From assembly GCF_030539555.1 (NCBI RefSeq), contig NZ_JAUNXX010000002.1, positions 36,408 to 100,407 on the forward strand: 64,000 nt of DNA, written 5' to 3'. The notes beneath the pieces were generated by a model. It ran no database searches. It saw nothing but the letters and a program-made list of their open reading frames with translations, and was not told the DNA's origin. This document shows, in pieces, positions 2,786 through 10,574 of this stretch; position 1 is the first letter of the stretch, and each line of letters starts with the position of its first letter. The DNA is from Methanobrevibacter sp. (lineage in GTDB: Archaea; Methanobacteriota; Methanobacteria; Methanobacteriales; Methanobacteriaceae). A program made the position numbers and the translations under genes.

Positions 2786-3661
2786 TTATAAATTCCTATA
2801 TTCTCTAATTGAAGTATATTCGTCGTCAAGTTCGCCGTATGAAGATAATTTTTCTTTGTTTGCTTCAGCATCCAAGTATAAATTACCTTTACCGTTAAGA
2901 CCAATATCTCCAGTATATTTAATATATTTACCTTCGAAAGTAGTTCCTTCAACTTCAGGATCAACAACTATACCATCGAGAACAAATCCTTCGAGTAATC
3001 TTCCGAGGAATCCGTGGATAACAATGTTACCGTTTTTCATTTGTCCACCAGGCCAACGGTTTACGTTACCGTCGATTTCAATAATACCTTTGGTCATGTG
3101 AATACCAGCTAAGATATCACAGTTACCTTTAACGTGGATTCTACCACCGGTTAAACATTCACCACATTGTTTACCAGCGTTACCGCCGACAACAATTTGT
3201 CCTCCAGTCATACCTCTCCATTCACCAATGTAAGAAGCACCAGTGAATTCTTTGGTGTTTCCTTCAATTTCAAGGTAACCACCAGACATTTCTCTTCCAG
3301 CGTGAGCAGCTGCATCACCTTTAACGAGAATGGATCCGCCAGACATTTCAGCACCAACGTGTAAATCTACACTGCTGTTACATACGATGTTTCCACCACT
3401 CATTTTACAACCGATGTATTTTACTCTGTTCAAATCACCGTTGAGAATCATTTCAACTTCATCAGGTCCGTTAGCTTCTCCAACTACAGTAATTTTGAAG
3501 AAGTCAGTGATTGGGAATCTTGAATTTCCAATAGGAACTTGATATTTTGCGAAATCAGCTTCAGTCCATGAATAAATTTCATCAGGAATTAATTCATCAA
3601 ATTCTAAAGCGATTGAAGAAGTTTTTATTTGATCAAATGTAATAGTTTTCAAATTAAACAC
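2786..3661 (-). CDS. fwdC: Formylmethanofuran dehydrogenase subunit C
   Basis: Structural subunit of the molybdenum/tungsten enzyme that reduces CO2 onto methanofuran, the first step of methanogenesis. The 291-residue protein is dominated by glycine-rich repeats (about residues 75-250; phrases such as [53 protein letters not shown]) that build the right-handed beta-helix typical of FwdC and of the glutamate synthase alpha-subunit tail. It is the last enzyme gene of the operon, two bases after the fwdA stop. The length fits the family. Confidence 0.96.
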
Positions 3662-3663
3662 CC

Positions 3664-5376
3664 CTATTTACCTTCAACATCTATTCTAATTGGGTTAGAT
3701 ACATAGTGGTCGTGTACTGGATAGTTTTCCCATTTTACTGAGTAGTATTGAGTGAAGAACGGCATGATGTTGTCGATTACTTTTTGTTCTTCTCTTTCCC
3801 ATCCTTTTACGTTAACCCAAACATTTTGACTTTCTTTAACTTTAACGATTTCTTTATCTTTTACCAATATTTGACCATCTTTAATAGTGTATTCAGCTAC
3901 ATTGAAACCTTTTTCAATTTCATCAGCTTGTTTGGATGGATCAATATCATTAGGATTTATGTCATATACTGCAATGTCTGCTCTGTATCCAGGAGTAAGT
4001 GCACCTTTATCAGTGAATCCGTAGATTTTAGCTGGAGCAGCCCTAGTAATAGTTGCAATATCGTAGAAATCATATTCTCTTTCGAGAGTTGGGAGAAGAG
4101 TTCTTTTGTGTACCCATTTGTGAACTTCATTGTCACACATGTCTTGTCTTTTCTCATTACTCATCAACCAAGAGATAATTCTAGGATATCTAGTAAATGG
4201 TCCTGCGTTAGGGTGGTCAGTAGTTAAACATACTCTCCATGGGTCTTCGATTAAGAGGAATAATTCAAGACCGATAGCCCATTGTAATGTACTAACAGGA
4301 CTTTTCTTGGAGTAAATACAAGGAATGATACCTGCAGCAGTTTCACATTCAATATCCTTGTTGGTCCATTTAAGACCGGATAATTTGAATAAATCGTATT
4401 CCATAGGAGCGTCTGCAGTCATTGTAGTGGTTTCATCGAAGGTTACTTGACCGATATCACAAGTTATGTTGTCTTTTTTGTTGAAATGTTTAGCAACTTC
4501 TTCAGCACCGGAAGTTACATCTCTCCAGCTGTTACCTAAGTAAGAGTGGAACTGCAAGTGAGTCATGTGCATAACTTGGTCCCTGATTTCAGCTGCACCT
4601 TTACCTTTTTTAATGCCGTCCATAGCATCCATGGTTTCTAAGGTTGTAGGTACGTTACCTGGGTGTCCTAAGTCATTAGGGTGAATGTGTATAGAGTGAG
4701 GTAAGTTTAACATTTCGTTAGCTTTTGCTAAAGCGATAACAACTTCTTTTGAAGTTACGTCAAAGTATGGTGCTTTGTCGTTGAAACCGTGTACGTTCAT
4801 ACCCCATCCCCATGCTTCACTTCCACATGGGTTTACAATTTTTACACCGTAACCTTTGGAGATTTTTAACCATGCTGCAATGAATGCTGCAATGTCTTCA
4901 ATATTATTATCTTTTGCGTATTCCATTACAAACCAGTTGTTACCGAATAATGGTAAAGCTGGAATATCTAATTGAGGAATAGTTGCAATTTCTTCGTGAG
5001 TGTGTTTTGCTTCAAGAGGAGGCATAGCTGCTTCTACAACAGTACCGTAACCTAATCTTGAGTATCTGTAACCAGTTGCAGGACAACTTGGAATAGAGAA
5101 ACCAGATTCAGATCTTAATACGCTAGTTTTTTGAGTAACACCTCTTCTGGAATCTTCAGGTCTGTATAATCTTCCTACTACTAATTTAGGACCTGCAACG
5201 TGTGCGTGAGGGTCAATACCTGCTGGCATGACAATTTTATCGGTAACGTCTAAGACTTTAGCATCTGCAGATACGCTATCTACAATTTTGCCATCTTTGA
5301 ACATGACATCCATCTTTTCCCCGTTAACTTCGTTAGCTGGGTCGTAGACTATACCATTTTTAAGAATATATTCCAT
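3664..5376 (-). CDS. fwdA: Formylmethanofuran dehydrogenase subunit A (amidohydrolase)
   Basis: FwdA carries the binuclear metal site that condenses formate with methanofuran after the formate has crossed a tunnel from FwdB. The ATG at 5376 (AAAGGTGAT upstream) gives 570 residues; a longer frame from 5412 would overlap fwdB and lacks a ribosome site. Metal-site features of the amidohydrolase superfamily are visible: DPHAH at residues 55-59, later histidines in HSIHIHPND and HMTHLQFH, and the C-terminal aspartate in [10 protein letters not shown]. It overlaps neither neighbour and sits between fwdB and fwdC. Highly conserved. Confidence 0.97.
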
Positions 5377-5386
5377 TATATCACCT

Positions 5387-6763
5387 TTAGAGTGCGTTTG
5401 GATTTGGCACATATTTTGGAGCTACGTTTGGCTCTTCTCTGAGTTTCATTACTCTTTCTTTCAATTCACGGACAATCCATTCGTCATCACGACAGGTTTC
5501 TGGTTTGTCGATAGCTTTCTTCATGTAGATAGGAACTCCATCCATACGATAACTGGTACCGGCACATTCTACAGCAATGAATGAACCTGGCAATACTACA
5601 TCAGCGAGTTCTGTTGATGGACCCCAGTGAATATCGATTTGAATAACAGGAATGTTAGCTAAGTGTTGGTTTGCTCCATTAGGGAAGTGAGCACCTGGGT
5701 CAGCTGCAATAACCATGAAACAGTCAGGTTCTTTCCTTACTAATAAATCGATGGTGTTGGTTTCTCCCATCATATATCTTGGGTAACCTCTACAGTAGTC
5801 AACACCGAAAGCAAATCCACATTCGAATGCCATGAAAATGTTGAATCCGTTTACGTTAAAGTGACCTCTCATTGGAGTAAGACCCCATTTACTGTATTTG
5901 TTTAAGTCTTGTACCATTTTAATTGCAATATCAATGTTTCTTTGTTTTGATAAAGTGTGGGTTAAACCTAAACCGAAGAAGAGAACACCGAATTCAGCGT
6001 TTTTCATTTCTTCTGCTAATTCATAAATATCTTCTTTAGGAATTCCAGAAATTACGTCTTGGTATAATTCTTTTCCTCTGAGAACTGCTCTAATAGCATT
6101 GTAGAAACCGTAGTCTCCGTTTTGTTCAAATCCAATCCATTTGTCTGAACATTTTGCAGTATCTGAGAATTTTGGATCCATTGTTACAACAGTTCTGTCG
6201 AATCTTCCTCTTTGTCTGAAGTATCCACGACAGAATACAGCATATCTTGCCATGTGTCTTGGGTGAGAGTTCATAGCGTTACTTCCAGAGTAAACAACCA
6301 TGTCAGCTCTGTTTTGTACTTCACCTAAAGTTTGGATAGGGTAACCTGCGTTTTGTACAGCTTGCAGGGAAGGACCGTGACAGATAGTAGCTTGGTTATC
6401 CAATACAGCACCAATGTATTCACCTAATGCTACTCCTTCTTTCATACATTCGGTAGAAGTTTCAGACCAACCGTAAAATACCGGTCTGATGGAGTTAGCA
6501 ATGTATTCAGCAGCTTTATCTAAAGCAGTATCCCAATCTACTTCTTTAAGTTCTCCGTTTTCATCCCTAATCATTGGAACAATTAATCTTTGATCCATAT
6601 CTTCCATAATTTTACTTGCACCTAATCTGCATGCGTGTCTTACAGCAACAACATGATTGTTTTTAACTAAGTAATCTAAGTCGTCACAGTTACAACCACA
6701 GAAAGCACAGGTACAGTTTTCAACAATGTAATCATAATCAGTTACAGGTGGTTCATAAGTCAT
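5387..6763 (-). CDS. fwdB: Formylmethanofuran dehydrogenase subunit B (Mo/W-pterin catalytic subunit)
   Basis: FwdB reduces CO2 to formate at a bis-pterin tungsten or molybdenum site. From the ATG at 6763 (GGAGGAG upstream; an in-frame TTG at 6769 is less likely) it has 458 residues. The N-terminal [4Fe-4S] ligands are C19, C22, C26 and C45. The metal ligand is C128 in ATICHGPS, so this is the cysteine, not selenocysteine, form. The sequence alone does not decide between W and Mo. The start overlaps the fwdD stop by 11 nt, indicating translational coupling; the bis-pterin binding portion continues in FwdD. Confidence 0.96.
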
Positions 6764-7322
6764 GATCAATCAACTCCTCCCATTTACGTCCGTGATAAAC
6801 AGGTAATTCACCTAAAGATTCCATGTTTTCAACAACATCGTCATCTTCTTCATCAACGTATTTTTTGTATACCCATCTCATTAAGTCAGCCATGAGTAAT
6901 ACTTTTCTGTCTGTTTTTTCTACGGTACAGCGAATACCTTTGTAAGTAGGGTCAGAACAACAGTAAGTGTCGTGACTTACAATAGTGTTAGCCCATGGAC
7001 CTTTACAAATGAATACAGTACCTTCGTGAGGTGCATCTCTTGAAACTGCACAGTTTACAACTACTTCACCGAAATCGGTTTTAACAAGTACAGTATCCCA
7101 GTTGTTTACACCTAATTTTGCCATATCTCTAGGATCCATGTAACAAGTACCTGAAGCGTTTTTGTATTCTTGTTTTAAGGTGGATCCTCTTTTTTTACAA
7201 GCACCTTGGTAGATGTCAGATCCGGTGTTTAACATACATTTTAAAACATCGGTAGTTCCTTCACCAGTGATTTTTACATCAGGCACTACAGGTTTTTCTA
7301 AATAAGTATTAGCATAATGCAT
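6753..7322 (-). CDS. fwdD: Formylmethanofuran dehydrogenase subunit D
   Basis: FwdD supplies the molybdopterin-dinucleotide binding cap domain that sits over FwdB. The recognisable part (about residues 18-135) contains [20 protein letters not shown] and the [13 protein letters not shown] stretch found in this family. At 189 residues it is longer than the roughly 130 residues usual for FwdD. The extra part is a C-terminal tail from about residue 140 rich in charged residues and tryptophan, with an EEDDD run, whose role is unknown. Its end overlaps the start of fwdB. Confidence 0.93.
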
Positions 7323-7334
7323 ATAATAATCCCC

Positions 7335-7565
7335 CTATTCTAACCATATAGCATTTACTGGGCAAAACATTTGACATGTTCCACATTTTTCACATTTTTC
7401 AGGACTGAAAAGTTTAATAAATCCGTTTTCTACCATCATAATAACTTCTTCAGTCTTTGCACCATTACCACCAGCATTTTCCGGACTGATAGCTGCATTA
7501 ACAGGACAAGCAATTACACAAATCCCGCATCCTAAACAATTATCTTGTTCTACTTTAAGTTCCAT
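7335..7565 (-). CDS. fwdG: Formylmethanofuran dehydrogenase ferredoxin subunit G
   Basis: A 76-residue 2[4Fe-4S] ferredoxin passing electrons between the FwdF polyferredoxin and FwdB. Two classic cluster motifs are visible, CLGCGICVIACPVN and CEKCGTCQMFCPVN. The ATG at 7565 is preferred to an in-frame GTG at 7574 because AGGTGAT precedes it at good spacing. It lies tightly between fwdF (stop at 7575) and fwdD (12 nt gap) in the operon. Confidence 0.92.
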   Translation of the reverse strand: MELKVEQDNCLGCGICVIACPVNAAISPENAGGNGAKTEEVIMMVENGFIKLFSPEKCEKCGTCQMFCPVNAIWLE

Positions 7566-7574
7566 CCAAATCAC

Positions 7575-8672
7575 CTAGTCTTTAATAGCGTCTAAAGCTT
7601 CTTTCCAAGTAGCTGAGTTTATAGGAGTGTGATCAATTGCAGTTCTTTTAACTGTAATAGCACCGTTAGGACATGCATTTGCACATGCTTTACATTTAAT
7701 ACAGTAATCAGCATTAACAATAACATGTTCCATTCTGGAACCAGGACCGGTTGATACAGGGAATGCTAAAGCATTACAACTACAAATATCTACACAAGCA
7801 CCACAAGCTTGACATTTGTCTTGGTCTACTTCTATAGTTCCTTCAAATGGTTTTTTGTGTTTTGCTGCATCAGTAGGACATACTCCTTCACACCATCCGC
7901 AGTATACACATGCATCTGAATCAATAACAGAGTTTCCGGTAACTACTGCTTTTGCAGGGTCTAAGTCATATTCTCCGTAAGAACAAGCTCTACATAGTGC
8001 TTTGATAGCTTTAGTAGGACAAGATTTTTTACATACAAGACAATATACACATTTCTCTTTGTCTATGACAATAGATTCTTTTCCGGTTTCACTGTCAACA
8101 ACTATAGCTTCTGCAGGACATAATTCTTGGCATACACCACAGTAAATACAGTCATCTTCATTTACTTCAATTTCACCAGTTACTAAGTCTGCACGACTTG
8201 GTAAAACTCTTTCAATGACGATTGCATCACGAGGACATGCAACTTCACATCTTTTACAGTAAATACATTCATCATCATCAATTTCTGAGAAAGCATTATA
8301 ATGAGGATATGCTTCAATTTCGCGGATAGGAACATCATTAATGGTTAATACTAATGCATCAACAGGACATAATCCGCTGCACATACCGCACAATACACAT
8401 TTACTTTCGTCAATTTGAATTCTTTGAACATCAAAATCATCTTTGAAGTTTTGAGCAATCTTTTCATGACCACTGAAGTAAATGTCATTTGAAAGTCTGT
8501 GACGAGCATCGACAGCAATTGAATTTAATGTAATTGCTTCAACAGGACAAGTGGACTCACAAATTCCACAACCTAAACAGGTTTGGTCATTGAAAGTTAA
8601 TTTCCTTACTTCTTCAGCATCTCTTGTGATGTCAAAGTTATTGTCATTAACCTCTTTTAAATTTCTAATCAT
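7575..8672 (-). CDS. fwdF: Polyferredoxin subunit F of formylmethanofuran dehydrogenase
   Basis: FwdF is the polyferredoxin that wires the enzyme to its electron donor, in known systems the heterodisulfide reductase/hydrogenase or formate dehydrogenase complex. Eight CxxCxxCxxxC(P/S) motifs can be counted along 365 residues, beginning CLGCGICESTCP and ending CIKCKACANACP, so eight [4Fe-4S] clusters are expected; one further CRAC motif stands alone near residue 230. A GGAGATTT ribosome site precedes the ATG, one base after the stop of the upstream HTH-ferredoxin gene, so the two are probably coupled. Confidence 0.95.
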   Translation of the reverse strand: MIRNLKEVNDNNFDITRDAEEVRKLTFNDQTCLGCGICESTCPVEAITLNSIAVDARHRLSNDIYFSGHEKIAQNFKDDFDVQRIQIDESKCVLCGMCSGLCPVDALVLTINDVPIREIEAYPHYNAFSEIDDDECIYCKRCEVACPRDAIVIERVLPSRADLVTGEIEVNEDDCIYCGVCQELCPAEAIVVDSETGKESIVIDKEKCVYCLVCKKSCPTKAIKALCRACSYGEYDLDPAKAVVTGNSVIDSDACVYCGWCEGVCPTDAAKHKKPFEGTIEVDQDKCQACGACVDICSCNALAFPVSTGPGSRMEHVIVNADYCIKCKACANACPNGAITVKRTAIDHTPINSATWKEALDAIKD

Positions 8673-8673
8673 A

Positions 8674-9123
8674 TTAAATCTCCAAAATTTTTATAGAATC
8701 AGTTGGGCACTCATCTTCACAAAGCTGACAACCGCAACATTGTATGGAGTCTGCATGTGCTTGTAACGATTCTAATTGAATAGCTTTCATTGAACATGCA
8801 TTTACACATAATCCACAACCAATACAAGAATCTTTTATAGTTACTTCGAAATTTCTTTCTTGGCAAATATTCACAATTTTTCGACTCTGTTCTGGTTCAT
8901 CAAATATAACTTCAGCCATTTTCAAAAAATCCCTGGGATAAAGTTCCACTATAGTTCTTGCAACATCGATTGAGTTCCAGGATAAGTTGCTGCCATTCAA
9001 ATAGTGTGAAATGGTAGACCTGTCAACTCCCAACTCATTTGCAATCGCCTGGTGACTTTCACCGGCATCCTTTAACTTGACTGCCGCCAAATATTTCAAA
9101 CCAGATGCAATATGTTTTGGCAT
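8674..9123 (-). CDS. Helix-turn-helix / 2[4Fe-4S] ferredoxin fusion protein, candidate regulator of the fwd operon
   Basis: First gene of the operon, 149 residues from the ATG at 9123 (GGTGGT upstream; an in-frame ATG at 9135 would lie inside the palindrome). Residues about 14-42 form a helix-turn-helix (SHQAIANELGVDRSTISHYL), in the manner of XRE or resolvase-like binders. From about residue 95 come two [4Fe-4S] motifs, CIGCGLCVNACS and CCGCQLCEDECP. Operons of this enzyme in relatives begin with a small iron-sulfur gene sometimes called fwdH or fwdE, and this may be its counterpart; I cannot settle the symbol. The domain pairing suggests a DNA-binding protein that senses redox state or cluster supply. 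A perfect 19-bp palindrome lies 10 bp before its start. Confidence 0.8.
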   Translation of the reverse strand: MPKHIASGLKYLAAVKLKDAGESHQAIANELGVDRSTISHYLNGSNLSWNSIDVARTIVELYPRDFLKMAEVIFDEPEQSRKIVNICQERNFEVTIKDSCIGCGLCVNACSMKAIQLESLQAHADSIQCCGCQLCEDECPTDSIKILEI

Positions 9124-9133
9124 TTGAACCACC

Positions 9134-9152
9134 ATGTGTAATGATTACACAT
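9134..9152. promoter_or_regulatory. 19-bp perfect palindrome (operator 1) at the fwd operon promoter
   Basis: ATGTGTAATGATTACACAT: two 9-bp arms around one central base. On the minus strand a TATA-like TTTATATA lies at about 9162-9170, so the palindrome falls between the TATA box and the start codon, over the expected transcription start. That is a standard archaeal repressor position. It shares its outer seven bases, ATGTGTA/TACACAT, with the palindrome at 9458-9476. Confidence 0.8.
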
Positions 9153-9211
9153 ATGTTTACTTATATAAATATATTTGCCTAAAAGAATTAAGACACAATC
9201 TTTATATATAA

Positions 9212-9230
9212 CTGTGTGGATACTACAACA
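9212..9230. promoter_or_regulatory. Degenerate third copy of the 19-bp operator
   Basis: CTGTGTGGATACTACAACA matches the 9458-9476 palindrome at 13 of 19 positions, including TGTGT on the left and TACTACA on the right. It follows a TATA-like run (9201-9210). By itself it is weak; the spacing in the same intergenic region as two perfect copies is the reason for listing it. Confidence 0.35.
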
Positions 9231-9330
9231 AAAAAATTCAAATAAAAGTTATAAATCAATATATAAAACTATAAATCATTCAAATTATTTAATTAATAAA
9301 AATAAAAAATAATAAGCATTTATATTAAAA

Positions 9331-9355
9331 TTAAATATCGATTATCGATATTTAA
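9331..9355. promoter_or_regulatory. 25-bp perfect palindrome in the fwd/mobB intergenic region
   Basis: Arms TTAAATATCGAT (9331-9342) and ATCGATATTTAA (9344-9355) flank a single T. It differs in sequence from the 19-bp operator family, so a second regulator is implied. A half copy, TATATCGA, lies at 9363-9370. The region 9153-9536 otherwise holds only AT-rich promoter DNA; I see no small gene or RNA gene in it. Confidence 0.65.
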
Positions 9356-9457
9356 AATGGTTTATATCGAGTATTTTTTAATAAAAAATTATGAAAAAGT
9401 ATTAAAAAAATGAAAAAAAATCTCAGAAAGTGTCAATTTTTAGGCCATCCAAAATTA

Positions 9458-9476
9458 ATGTGTAGTTACTACACAT
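9458..9476. promoter_or_regulatory. 19-bp perfect palindrome (operator 2) upstream of mobB-moaA
   Basis: ATGTGTAGTTACTACACAT: two perfect 9-bp arms around one base, the same family as operator 1 at 9134-9152. It lies 60 bp before the mobB start codon, hence near the expected promoter of the divergent cofactor-synthesis operon. Confidence 0.78.
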
Positions 9477-9536
9477 CACATAAAAAATAGTATTATTAAT
9501 GTTGAAATACTAATAATATTATAGGGGGAAAATGAG

Positions 9537-10574
9537 ATGAAAATCGCATCTATTGTAGGTAAAAAGAATACCGGAAAAACTTCACTAACAGTGAAGGTAA
9601 TTAGTGAACTAACAAAAAGAGGTTATAATGTTGCTTCCATAAAACATTCCCACCATTCAATAGAGATGGATAAGGAAAACACAGACACATGGAAACATAA
9701 ACAGGCCGGAGCAAATTTGGTTGTCGGTGTGGGATCAACTACTTTTTTCAATGCGCGAAAAGAGCATGACCTCAATAGAATATTATACTTACTGAAACAT
9801 TTCGACAATTTTGATTATGTAATAATTGAAGGCTACAAAAGCTACAACTATCCGAAAATCATCACTTCCCCTGAAGTCAGAGACGAATACACAATAAAAG
9901 AAGTGGATTCATTCACAATAGATGATGAAGGCATTAGAGAACTTGCAGACTTAATAGAACAGAGAGGTCACGACATTGTGGACACCCTATTTGCAAACAA
10001 CTGCGGATACAACAATGGTGAAGTTATCGCAGGAGATATACGTAACGGAAACTTAAGTGTCGAAAATCTTGACGATGTCTGCTGCTACATGTCAATAGAC
10101 GATAAAGTTGTTGGACTGAACAGATTTGTCAGTGATTACTTAAAGCAAAATATTTTGGGAATCATTAACACATTAAATCTTGATGATTATGGTGTTGAGG
10201 ATGTTAAAAAGATTGAATTGATTGTGCCCGATTCACAGTCAAGGCCCAATAAAGCAAATAAAAGAACTACTGTTTTAATCAATGGCAAAAATCTTGTGAT
10301 AAATAAATTTACAATGGACATTGTAACAAATTCAATTGCTGCAATGGTTAACTCCCTTAAAACACAGGAGGATGTAAATTCAATAGATATCGAAATATCA
10401 GGTATAAGTGATGACAATCTGATTGATGCTGAAATTGTCCTTAAAACAAACGGTAATGATGTAAAAATCAATGAATTCACCAGAGGAATTTTAAAAGAAA
10501 CTATTTTTGCAATCATCAGTACTCTAAAAACAGATGACAAAATCAGCGATATAAAAATTAAGGTGGAAGAGTGA
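9537..10574 (+). CDS. mobB: MobB-type molybdopterin-guanine dinucleotide protein with three C-terminal repeats
   Basis: MobB is a P-loop GTPase that assists attachment of the guanine nucleotide to molybdopterin. Residues 1-150 are a clear MobB domain: P-loop [10 protein letters not shown] (8-17), KHSHH at 36-40, and the YVIIEGYK motif near 94-101. MobB proteins are usually about 170 residues, but this one has 345. The extension (about 183-344) consists of three related units of roughly 48 residues, each with a pattern N-F----(L/I)-----I--(I/M)---L----(V/I)--I-I-(V/I). The function of the repeats is unknown. The ATG follows AGGGGGAAAATGAG. moaA begins four bases after the stop. Confidence 0.87.

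Follow-up and report, generated by a model that had tools for sequence, protein, structure and literature searches.

The DNA between the fwd operon and the divergently transcribed mobB and moaA genes of a Methanobrevibacter sp. carries a set of palindromes that look like conserved operator sites, and FwdH, the helix-turn-helix (HTH) ferredoxin protein encoded by the first gene of that operon, probably binds them as a dimer and represses its own operon. The region lies in a 64,000-nucleotide stretch (the window) of contig NZ_JAUNXX010000002.1 (assembly GCF_030539555.1, positions 36,408 to 100,407 of the forward strand), and coordinates are those of the window. Two odd palindromes of 19 bp, ATGTGTAATGATTACACAT (site C) and ATGTGTAGTTACTACACAT (site A), are perfect save for the central base and identical in their outer seven bases; a degenerate copy, site B, retains 9 of the 12 half-site letters. 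All three had been picked out at these positions by an initial annotation made from the letters alone, and this description stood, as did its placement of the first palindrome between a TATA box (TATA-like box 2 here) and the fwd start codon. Along the minus strand, in the direction of the operon, come site A, a ModE-type box, site B, TATA-like box 1, TATA-like box 2, site C, a GGTG motif and the ATG at 9123-9121 (Table 1). The fwdH open reading frame could begin at 9135, but the ATG is the better start because of the GGTG beside the palindrome and the conservation of the protein from MPKHI onward.

The sites are conserved well beyond the window. Of 149 Methanobacteriales genomes, 110 carry a full-length fwdH (in another genome set, 111 of 151, as a single copy in 109 and two copies in 2). 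From these, 104 loci were fetched, one per genome and 54 of them from the window's genus; 103 could be anchored and underlie the counts that follow. Sites were scored by the letters that fit two TGTGTA half-sites, with a maximum of 12. Site B scores at least 8 in all 103 loci and the full 12 in 16, site C at least 8 in 89, and site A at least 10 in 73. A, B and C occur together in 59 loci, A and B in 14, and B and C in 30; no locus lacks both A and C, and one of those counted as lacking A (L072) has too little upstream sequence to judge. The distance from B to C is 77 bp in 19 loci, 78 in 64, 79 in 4 and 80 in 2, so that all 89 fall within 77-80 bp, and that from A to B is 244-260 bp in 63 loci and 280-282 bp in 10. 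At its fixed position, site B scores 10 or more in 84 of the 103 loci, as against 6 of 2,060 shuffles, and site C in 70 of the 103, as against none of 2,060. The conservation of the palindrome near fwd across the order, on which the initial annotation had staked its proposal, is thus borne out at levels far above shuffled sequence. Adjoining site B, the TATATA core of TATA-like box 1 is at least 80% conserved at each position in the 103 loci.

Since the loci are related, these counts are not independent events, and the families and the outgroup give the better measure of depth. In family f1 the half-sites are mostly TGTGTA. In f2, which is Methanothermobacter-like, site C reads TGTGTGATTAACACACA in 7 of 8 loci, with TGTGTG on both sides, the two halves being altered alike. 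The outgroup genome G149, of the same class but outside the order and presumably Methanothermus, has B- and C-like sequences (GTTGTAGTAACTACATA and ATTGTAGTAAAAACACA) at -106 and -27, each scoring 9 of 12 and lying 79 bp apart. Conservation between A and B is poor in the Methanobrevibacter-like genus g1 (18 loci aligned); in genus g4 (9 loci) stretches near A are conserved and the remainder is not. The distal site varies within g4: in G048 (L111, L191) it is an array of three copies at 23-bp spacing (scores 11, 11 and 10), nine other g4 loci carry two distal copies at 24-bp spacing, and this genus has a decayed site C. Helical phasing of A and B was also considered (50 loci at 244-248 bp, 2 at 250, 11 at 254-260 and 10 at 280-282), and, given the relatedness of the loci, it is suggestive at most.

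Judged by pattern searches, the operator is nearly private to the fwdH locus. With up to three mismatches allowed, ATGTGTANTNANTACACAT has exactly two matches in the window, both exact; shuffled versions averaged 0.52 and reached two in 9 of 100 trials. The window also holds fdh genes, near which the initial annotation had suggested that copies be sought, and it contains no further site. Across the whole draft genome, ATGTGTA-N5-TACACAT gives the same two exact matches and one more place with a single mismatch. A dispersed regulon was looked for and not found, the total of matches with up to two mismatches (13) being close to that of a reversed-pattern control (10). Across the order, the exact pattern TGTGTA-N5-TACACA occurs in 91 of 149 genomes, its sites summing to 152, whereas the reversed control sums to 25. 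In the 104 fetched loci the 430 bp upstream of fwdH account for 105 exact sites, spread over 75 loci, and another 11 lie beyond, toward mobB; among the distinct exact sites listed, 71 of 75 fall at the fwdH/mobB locus (two of these, in G137, stand on a contig without fwdH and were assigned by likeness to G099). Among 27 genomes chosen mostly for their extra or odd sites, 21 of 56 exact sites lie away from the fwdH locus; 8 of the 21 are a single 17-mer, and 5 are in genomes without a detected fwdH. The 17-mer, TGTGTATAACTTACACA (position 1558 of L182 and 1484 of L184), is found in 8 of the 27 genomes and, in the two inspected, upstream of a gene that we named by eye as encoding a VWA-domain protein; given its asymmetric centre, it may be something other than this operator. 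A relaxed pattern that admits the f2 form (TGTGTR-NTNAN-YACACA) gave 11 sites, every one at fwdH, in 10 of the 20 genomes searched, and none for the reversed control; the other 10 genomes comprise 3 from genus g3 and 7 whose fwdH sites do not fit the pattern.

Genus g3, presumably Methanosphaera, provides the converse. Full-length fwdH was found in none of its 20 genomes, which together have two exact sites, as against 9 for the reversed control; fwdA was present in all four of those tested, and the FwdF matches there are only at the level of ferredoxins. The other 19 genomes without fwdH are uninformative, since assembly gaps are the likely cause: a fwdA match is missing in 14, weak in 1, partial in 3 and full in 1, and that full match begins 114 bases into its contig. 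FwdF-like polyferredoxin loci in genomes without fwdH were tried as carriers of the site and rejected, as four of the five inspected have no site scoring 10 and the fifth (L122) has a 10-of-12 match inside a coding region. The concentration of the operator at one locus, together with its absence where the HTH protein of that locus is absent, points to FwdH as the binder. The self-regulation by the HTH-ferredoxin protein that the initial annotation had proposed fits this near-private distribution, the position of the sites in cis and the joint absence in g3.

FwdH has an N-terminal HTH domain followed by two CxxCxxCxxxC motifs for [4Fe-4S] clusters, with a Fer4 match over the cut-off. In 30 orthologues picked from the 103 for diversity, the cluster cysteines (C100, C103, C106, C110, C129, C132, C135 and C139) are invariant in all 30, and so are R35, S36, T37, S39, H40 and Y41 of the predicted recognition helix. 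The HTH_3 profile (PF01381, Cro/C1) matches all 31 FwdH HTH domains at E ≤ 0.01 (best 3.3e-10), the window protein scoring 19.4 bits, under the curated cut-off of 23. The structure model has a mean predicted local distance difference test score of 93.4 and shows six helices and then a ferredoxin-type part. A PDB sequence search gave 162 matches, of which the best 60 all cover the ferredoxin part and leave out the HTH; in a PDB fold search the whole model retrieved mainly ferredoxin-type proteins, and the HTH portion alone retrieved generic HTH proteins. A search for relatives in named genomes kept 80 loci, of which 8 were full-length and the rest partial, mostly the ferredoxin part, and databases name the family variously as 4Fe-4S ferredoxin, as helix-turn-helix domain-containing protein, or by misnomers. 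Residue 34 of FwdH covaries with the sixth base of the site C half-site, all 12 loci with N34 having G there and 73 of the 77 with D34 having A; this was not used as evidence, because one site type, with G in both halves, accounts for 11 of the 12 N34 loci and higher scores were found for other columns.

The simplest interpretation is an autorepressor, because site B abuts TATA-like box 1 and site C spans the expected start region of box 2. FwdH on site B would block access of TATA-binding protein (TBP) and transcription factor B (TFB), and FwdH on site C would block RNA polymerase at the second promoter. That B is always accompanied by A or C suggests a need for two occupied sites, and a second occupied site, either C close by or A some 245-280 bp off by looping, would stabilise the complex. 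The two [4Fe-4S] clusters would gate DNA binding, with the ferredoxin domain as the sensor, so that redox or Fe-S status would set the amount of Fwd. Two observations bear on this reading. Site C is below threshold in 14 of the 103 loci, and the joint absence of fwdH and operator in g3 does not by itself decide the binder, because the single g3 genome tested lacks ModE as well.

The first of these observations favours the main mechanistic rival, in which FwdH is an activator that recruits TBP and TFB from site B, just upstream of the TFB recognition element and TATA box, with C weak or unrelated. Site B is universal and adjoins the most conserved TATA-like box, as an activator would have it; the placement of C across the predicted start region, seen at an unvarying distance from B in 89 of 103 loci, is, as far as position alone can tell, a better fit to repression, and we regard activation as unlikely. 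The second observation bears on the main rival for the identity of the binder, namely that the palindromes are operators of another regulator sharing the distribution of FwdH, most plausibly a ModE-like molybdate or tungstate sensor. Both fwd and mobB-moaA are molybdopterin genes, and a ModE-type HTH (TIGR00637) was matched in 11 of 12 genomes, passing the cut-off in one of them, and was absent in the one g3 genome tested. Against this, the 11 modE loci have no palindrome scoring 10 or more within about 1.5 kb, the relaxed operator pattern has no site away from fwdH in 20 genomes, and a separate box with the core of the ModE consensus stands between sites A and B. A ModE-like binder of the palindromes therefore seems improbable.

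That separate box, CGATATTTAAAATGGTTTATATCG, which the initial annotation did not mention, fits CGNTAT-N12-ATANCG at 10 of 10 letters, the core of the ModE consensus ATCGNTATATA-N6-TATATANCGAT as given for E. coli (PMC545781). It differs from the ATGTGTA palindrome, and the archaeal ModE-type matches, as noted, mostly fall below the family cut-off. It is the only exact match in its own draft genome, where the reversed control gives 2. Scanned over 700 bp in the 103 loci, the box has 18 matches of 9 or 10 letters, at -246 to -248 in 13 of 54 g1 loci, at -326 to -329 in 4 of 10 g4 loci and at -303 in one; another four g4 loci reach 8 letters at -326 to -328, one g4 locus has no match, and other scores of 8 are scattered. 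The exact pattern occurs in 7 of 15 genomes searched, and since the reversed control was equal or higher in several, the pattern alone is weak and the fixed offset is the evidence. The pattern also precedes unrelated genes elsewhere. In G024 (L322, position 1501) a box lies about 237 bp upstream of a polyferredoxin gene of the FwdF-like kind, and in G025 (L323) a perfect CGTTATTTATA-CA-TATAAATAACG precedes a formate dehydrogenase-like gene, both genes being named by eye. The match to the ModE-type HTH in the window's own genome scores 65.5 bits, as against a cut-off of 98.5, and lies at a contig end; the gene (L313, 1501-1719) is cut by that end and has two in-frame TGA codons where relatives have glycine codons, possibly an assembly error. 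In some species of two genera, the box between A and B would add a molybdate or tungstate signal to control by FwdH.

Two other repeats lie in this part of the region. A 21-bp palindrome, AAATATCGATTATCGATATTT, at 9333-9353 overlaps the ModE-type box, and a degenerate inverted repeat of the type GTAATAC-N15-GTATTAC at 9378-9405 is of a kind also found in g1 relatives, some 60 bp downstream of their site A; it is similar to the NikR consensus, GTGTTAC-N13/14-GTAACAC (PMC545781). Sites A, B and C, with their TGTGTA half-sites and 5-bp spacer, do not match that NikR operator.

The distal site raises the question of what it serves, the initial annotation having proposed that one regulator controls both fwd and mobB-moaA. 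Counting sites of 11 or 12 letters, site A is present in 35 of the 38 loci with a nearby divergent mobB. In 19 genomes, after removal of four repeats, a divergent mobB stands more than 500 bp off; 17 of these keep site A at 351-364 bp from the fwdH start, and in 13 a separate site lies within 260 bp of mobB. Among nine genomes with mobB-moaA upstream in tandem (after removal of two repeats), A is kept in three, all g4, as a site pair, and six are without it; in those tandem loci whose mobB start was readable, the 250 bp before mobB contain no site that scores 10 or higher. We therefore reject A as a site for mobB only: its fixed place near fwdH while mobB moves, and its presence in tandem g4, indicate that A serves fwd, and in Methanobrevibacter-like genomes mobB too. 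Co-control thus fits the Methanobrevibacter-like genomes, in which the distal site or a further copy adjoins mobB, so that the same regulator would control mobB-moaA; as a general account of site A, which tracks fwdH as well as mobB, it does not. In the window, where site A ends 60 bp from the mobB start, one site would serve both operons. In several Methanobrevibacter-like genomes (L175-L181) a second FwdF-like polyferredoxin gene, of about 338 amino acids, separates mobB from fwdH and is flanked on each side by operator copies; in other genomes this gene is away from fwd.

It is very unlikely that the palindromes act instead as RNA, C as a leader hairpin by the ribosome-binding motif and A as a terminator-like hairpin followed by T residues. 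The C leader of the window does fold with a 9-bp stem (-10.5 kcal/mol, z -1.42), as does, similarly, a Methanothermobacter-like leader (-10.1 kcal/mol, z -1.78). Moreover, site A is the one terminator-like match in 9100-9560, where shuffles average 0.0, and a gene runs toward A in g4 and where the polyferredoxin gene sits between mobB and fwdH. RNA hairpins are unlikely to be the whole story, however, because B, built from the same half-sites, stands upstream of the TATA-like box, the L055 leader no longer forms the hairpin (-2.6 kcal/mol), and no Rfam match lies within 8600-9700; C also falls short in the 14 loci mentioned, and in the window mobB runs away from A. Site A may have a second, terminator-like use in g4 and in the genomes with the extra polyferredoxin gene. 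That the repeats are functionless, kept by descent or left by mobile elements, is hardly credible even with 54 of 104 loci from one genus and many close relatives among them, as the sites persist while much of the A-B DNA has diverged, the two halves of a site change in step, and B and C recur in other families and, more weakly, in the outgroup.

Gene assignments are of two grades: fwdF and fwdB were named by NCBIfam models over the cut-off, and the other fwd genes by weaker or generic domains and their order, which is fwdH, fwdF, a small ferredoxin gene, fwdD, fwdB, fwdA and fwdC. Beyond the far end of the operon, at 352-2034, lies a gene for an NrpR-type nitrogen regulator (NRD1_2 and HTH_12).

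Table 1. Sites and genes of the fwd/mobB-moaA region (window coordinates)
Feature	Coordinates	Strand	Remarks
Site C	9134..9152		19-bp palindrome over the predicted start/leader of fwdH; ends at GGTG
Site B	9212..9230		degenerate copy; scored 17-mer at 9213-9229; one base from TATA-like box 1
Site A	9458..9476		19-bp palindrome; centre 344 bp upstream of fwdH start
ModE-type box	9346..9369		CGNTAT-N12-ATANCG; between sites A and B
TATA-like box 1	9200..9210	-	TATATATAAAG; adjoins site B; putative promoter element
TATA-like box 2	9160..9170	-	ATTTATATAAG; upstream of site C; putative promoter element
GGTG	9130..9133	-	likely ribosome-binding motif for the ATG at 9123-9121; directly beside site C
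fwdH	8674..9123	-	HTH (Cro/C1-like) and two [4Fe-4S] motifs, 149 amino acids; predicted autoregulator
fwdF	7575..8672	-	polyferredoxin; NF042909 over cut-off
fwdG-like	7335..7574	-	small ferredoxin, 79 amino acids; named by operon position and Cys motifs
fwdD-like	6753..7322	-	molybdopterin dinucleotide binding domain, PF01568
fwdB	5387..6769	-	TIGR03129 over cut-off
fwdA-like	3664..5412	-	amidohydrolase, PF07969
fwdC-like	2786..3661	-	PF01493; weak GXGXG match under cut-off
mobB	9537..10574	+	TIGR00176 over cut-off
moaA	10579..11508	+	TIGR02668 over cut-off

Fe-S cluster transcription factors in which the cluster gates DNA binding are familiar from IscR, FNR and NsrR, and such gating is what we predict for FwdH, although its fold, with a dicluster ferredoxin domain, is different and its operator is nearly private. 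The Cro/C1-type (XRE, HTH_3) autorepressors are alike in combining a small HTH protein with palindromes by its own promoter and several sites at fixed spacing; FwdH differs in its 2[4Fe-4S] ferredoxin effector part, its archaeal promoter and its setting in a core energy-metabolism operon. A close known system is Tfx of Methanothermobacter, described for the fmdECB operon (PMC3087415): it too is a DNA-binding protein encoded beside a formylmethanofuran dehydrogenase operon, binds near the promoter and is tied to molybdate or tungstate. Tfx concerns fmd, however, and not fwd, it is a separate gene, and the part of that paper available to us mentions no ferredoxin domain for it. No Tfx profile appeared among the Pfam matches of FwdH or among the 25 of its 50 NCBIfam matches that were listed, no dedicated comparison with Tfx having been made. 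In its available part, PMC3087415 lists FwdH with the enzyme, calls Fwd constitutive and gives FwdH no regulator role. Neither a regulatory role for FwdH nor this operator turned up in the open literature searched.

FwdH is thus likely, on the evidence of sequence, an autoregulatory HTH factor with an unusual dicluster-ferredoxin sensor. More tentatively, it may be an order-wide redox sensor, a dicluster ferredoxin wired to a DNA-binding head, that reads the low-potential ferredoxin pool feeding CO2 reduction and sets the supply of the first enzyme (in Methanobrevibacter also of the cofactor pathway) through an operator of several sites, private to the locus, into which a ModE metal signal also feeds; this broader proposal is possible, and we would not put it higher. 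The Methanobacteriales include the main methanogens of the rumen and gut, and the control of the entry step of CO2 reduction in this order is little known; what can now be named for it is a candidate regulator, FwdH, and three sites with their geometry. If the proposal is true, FwdH would gain a role beyond its label as a ferredoxin or enzyme subunit, and the redox state of the cell would set entry into methane production.
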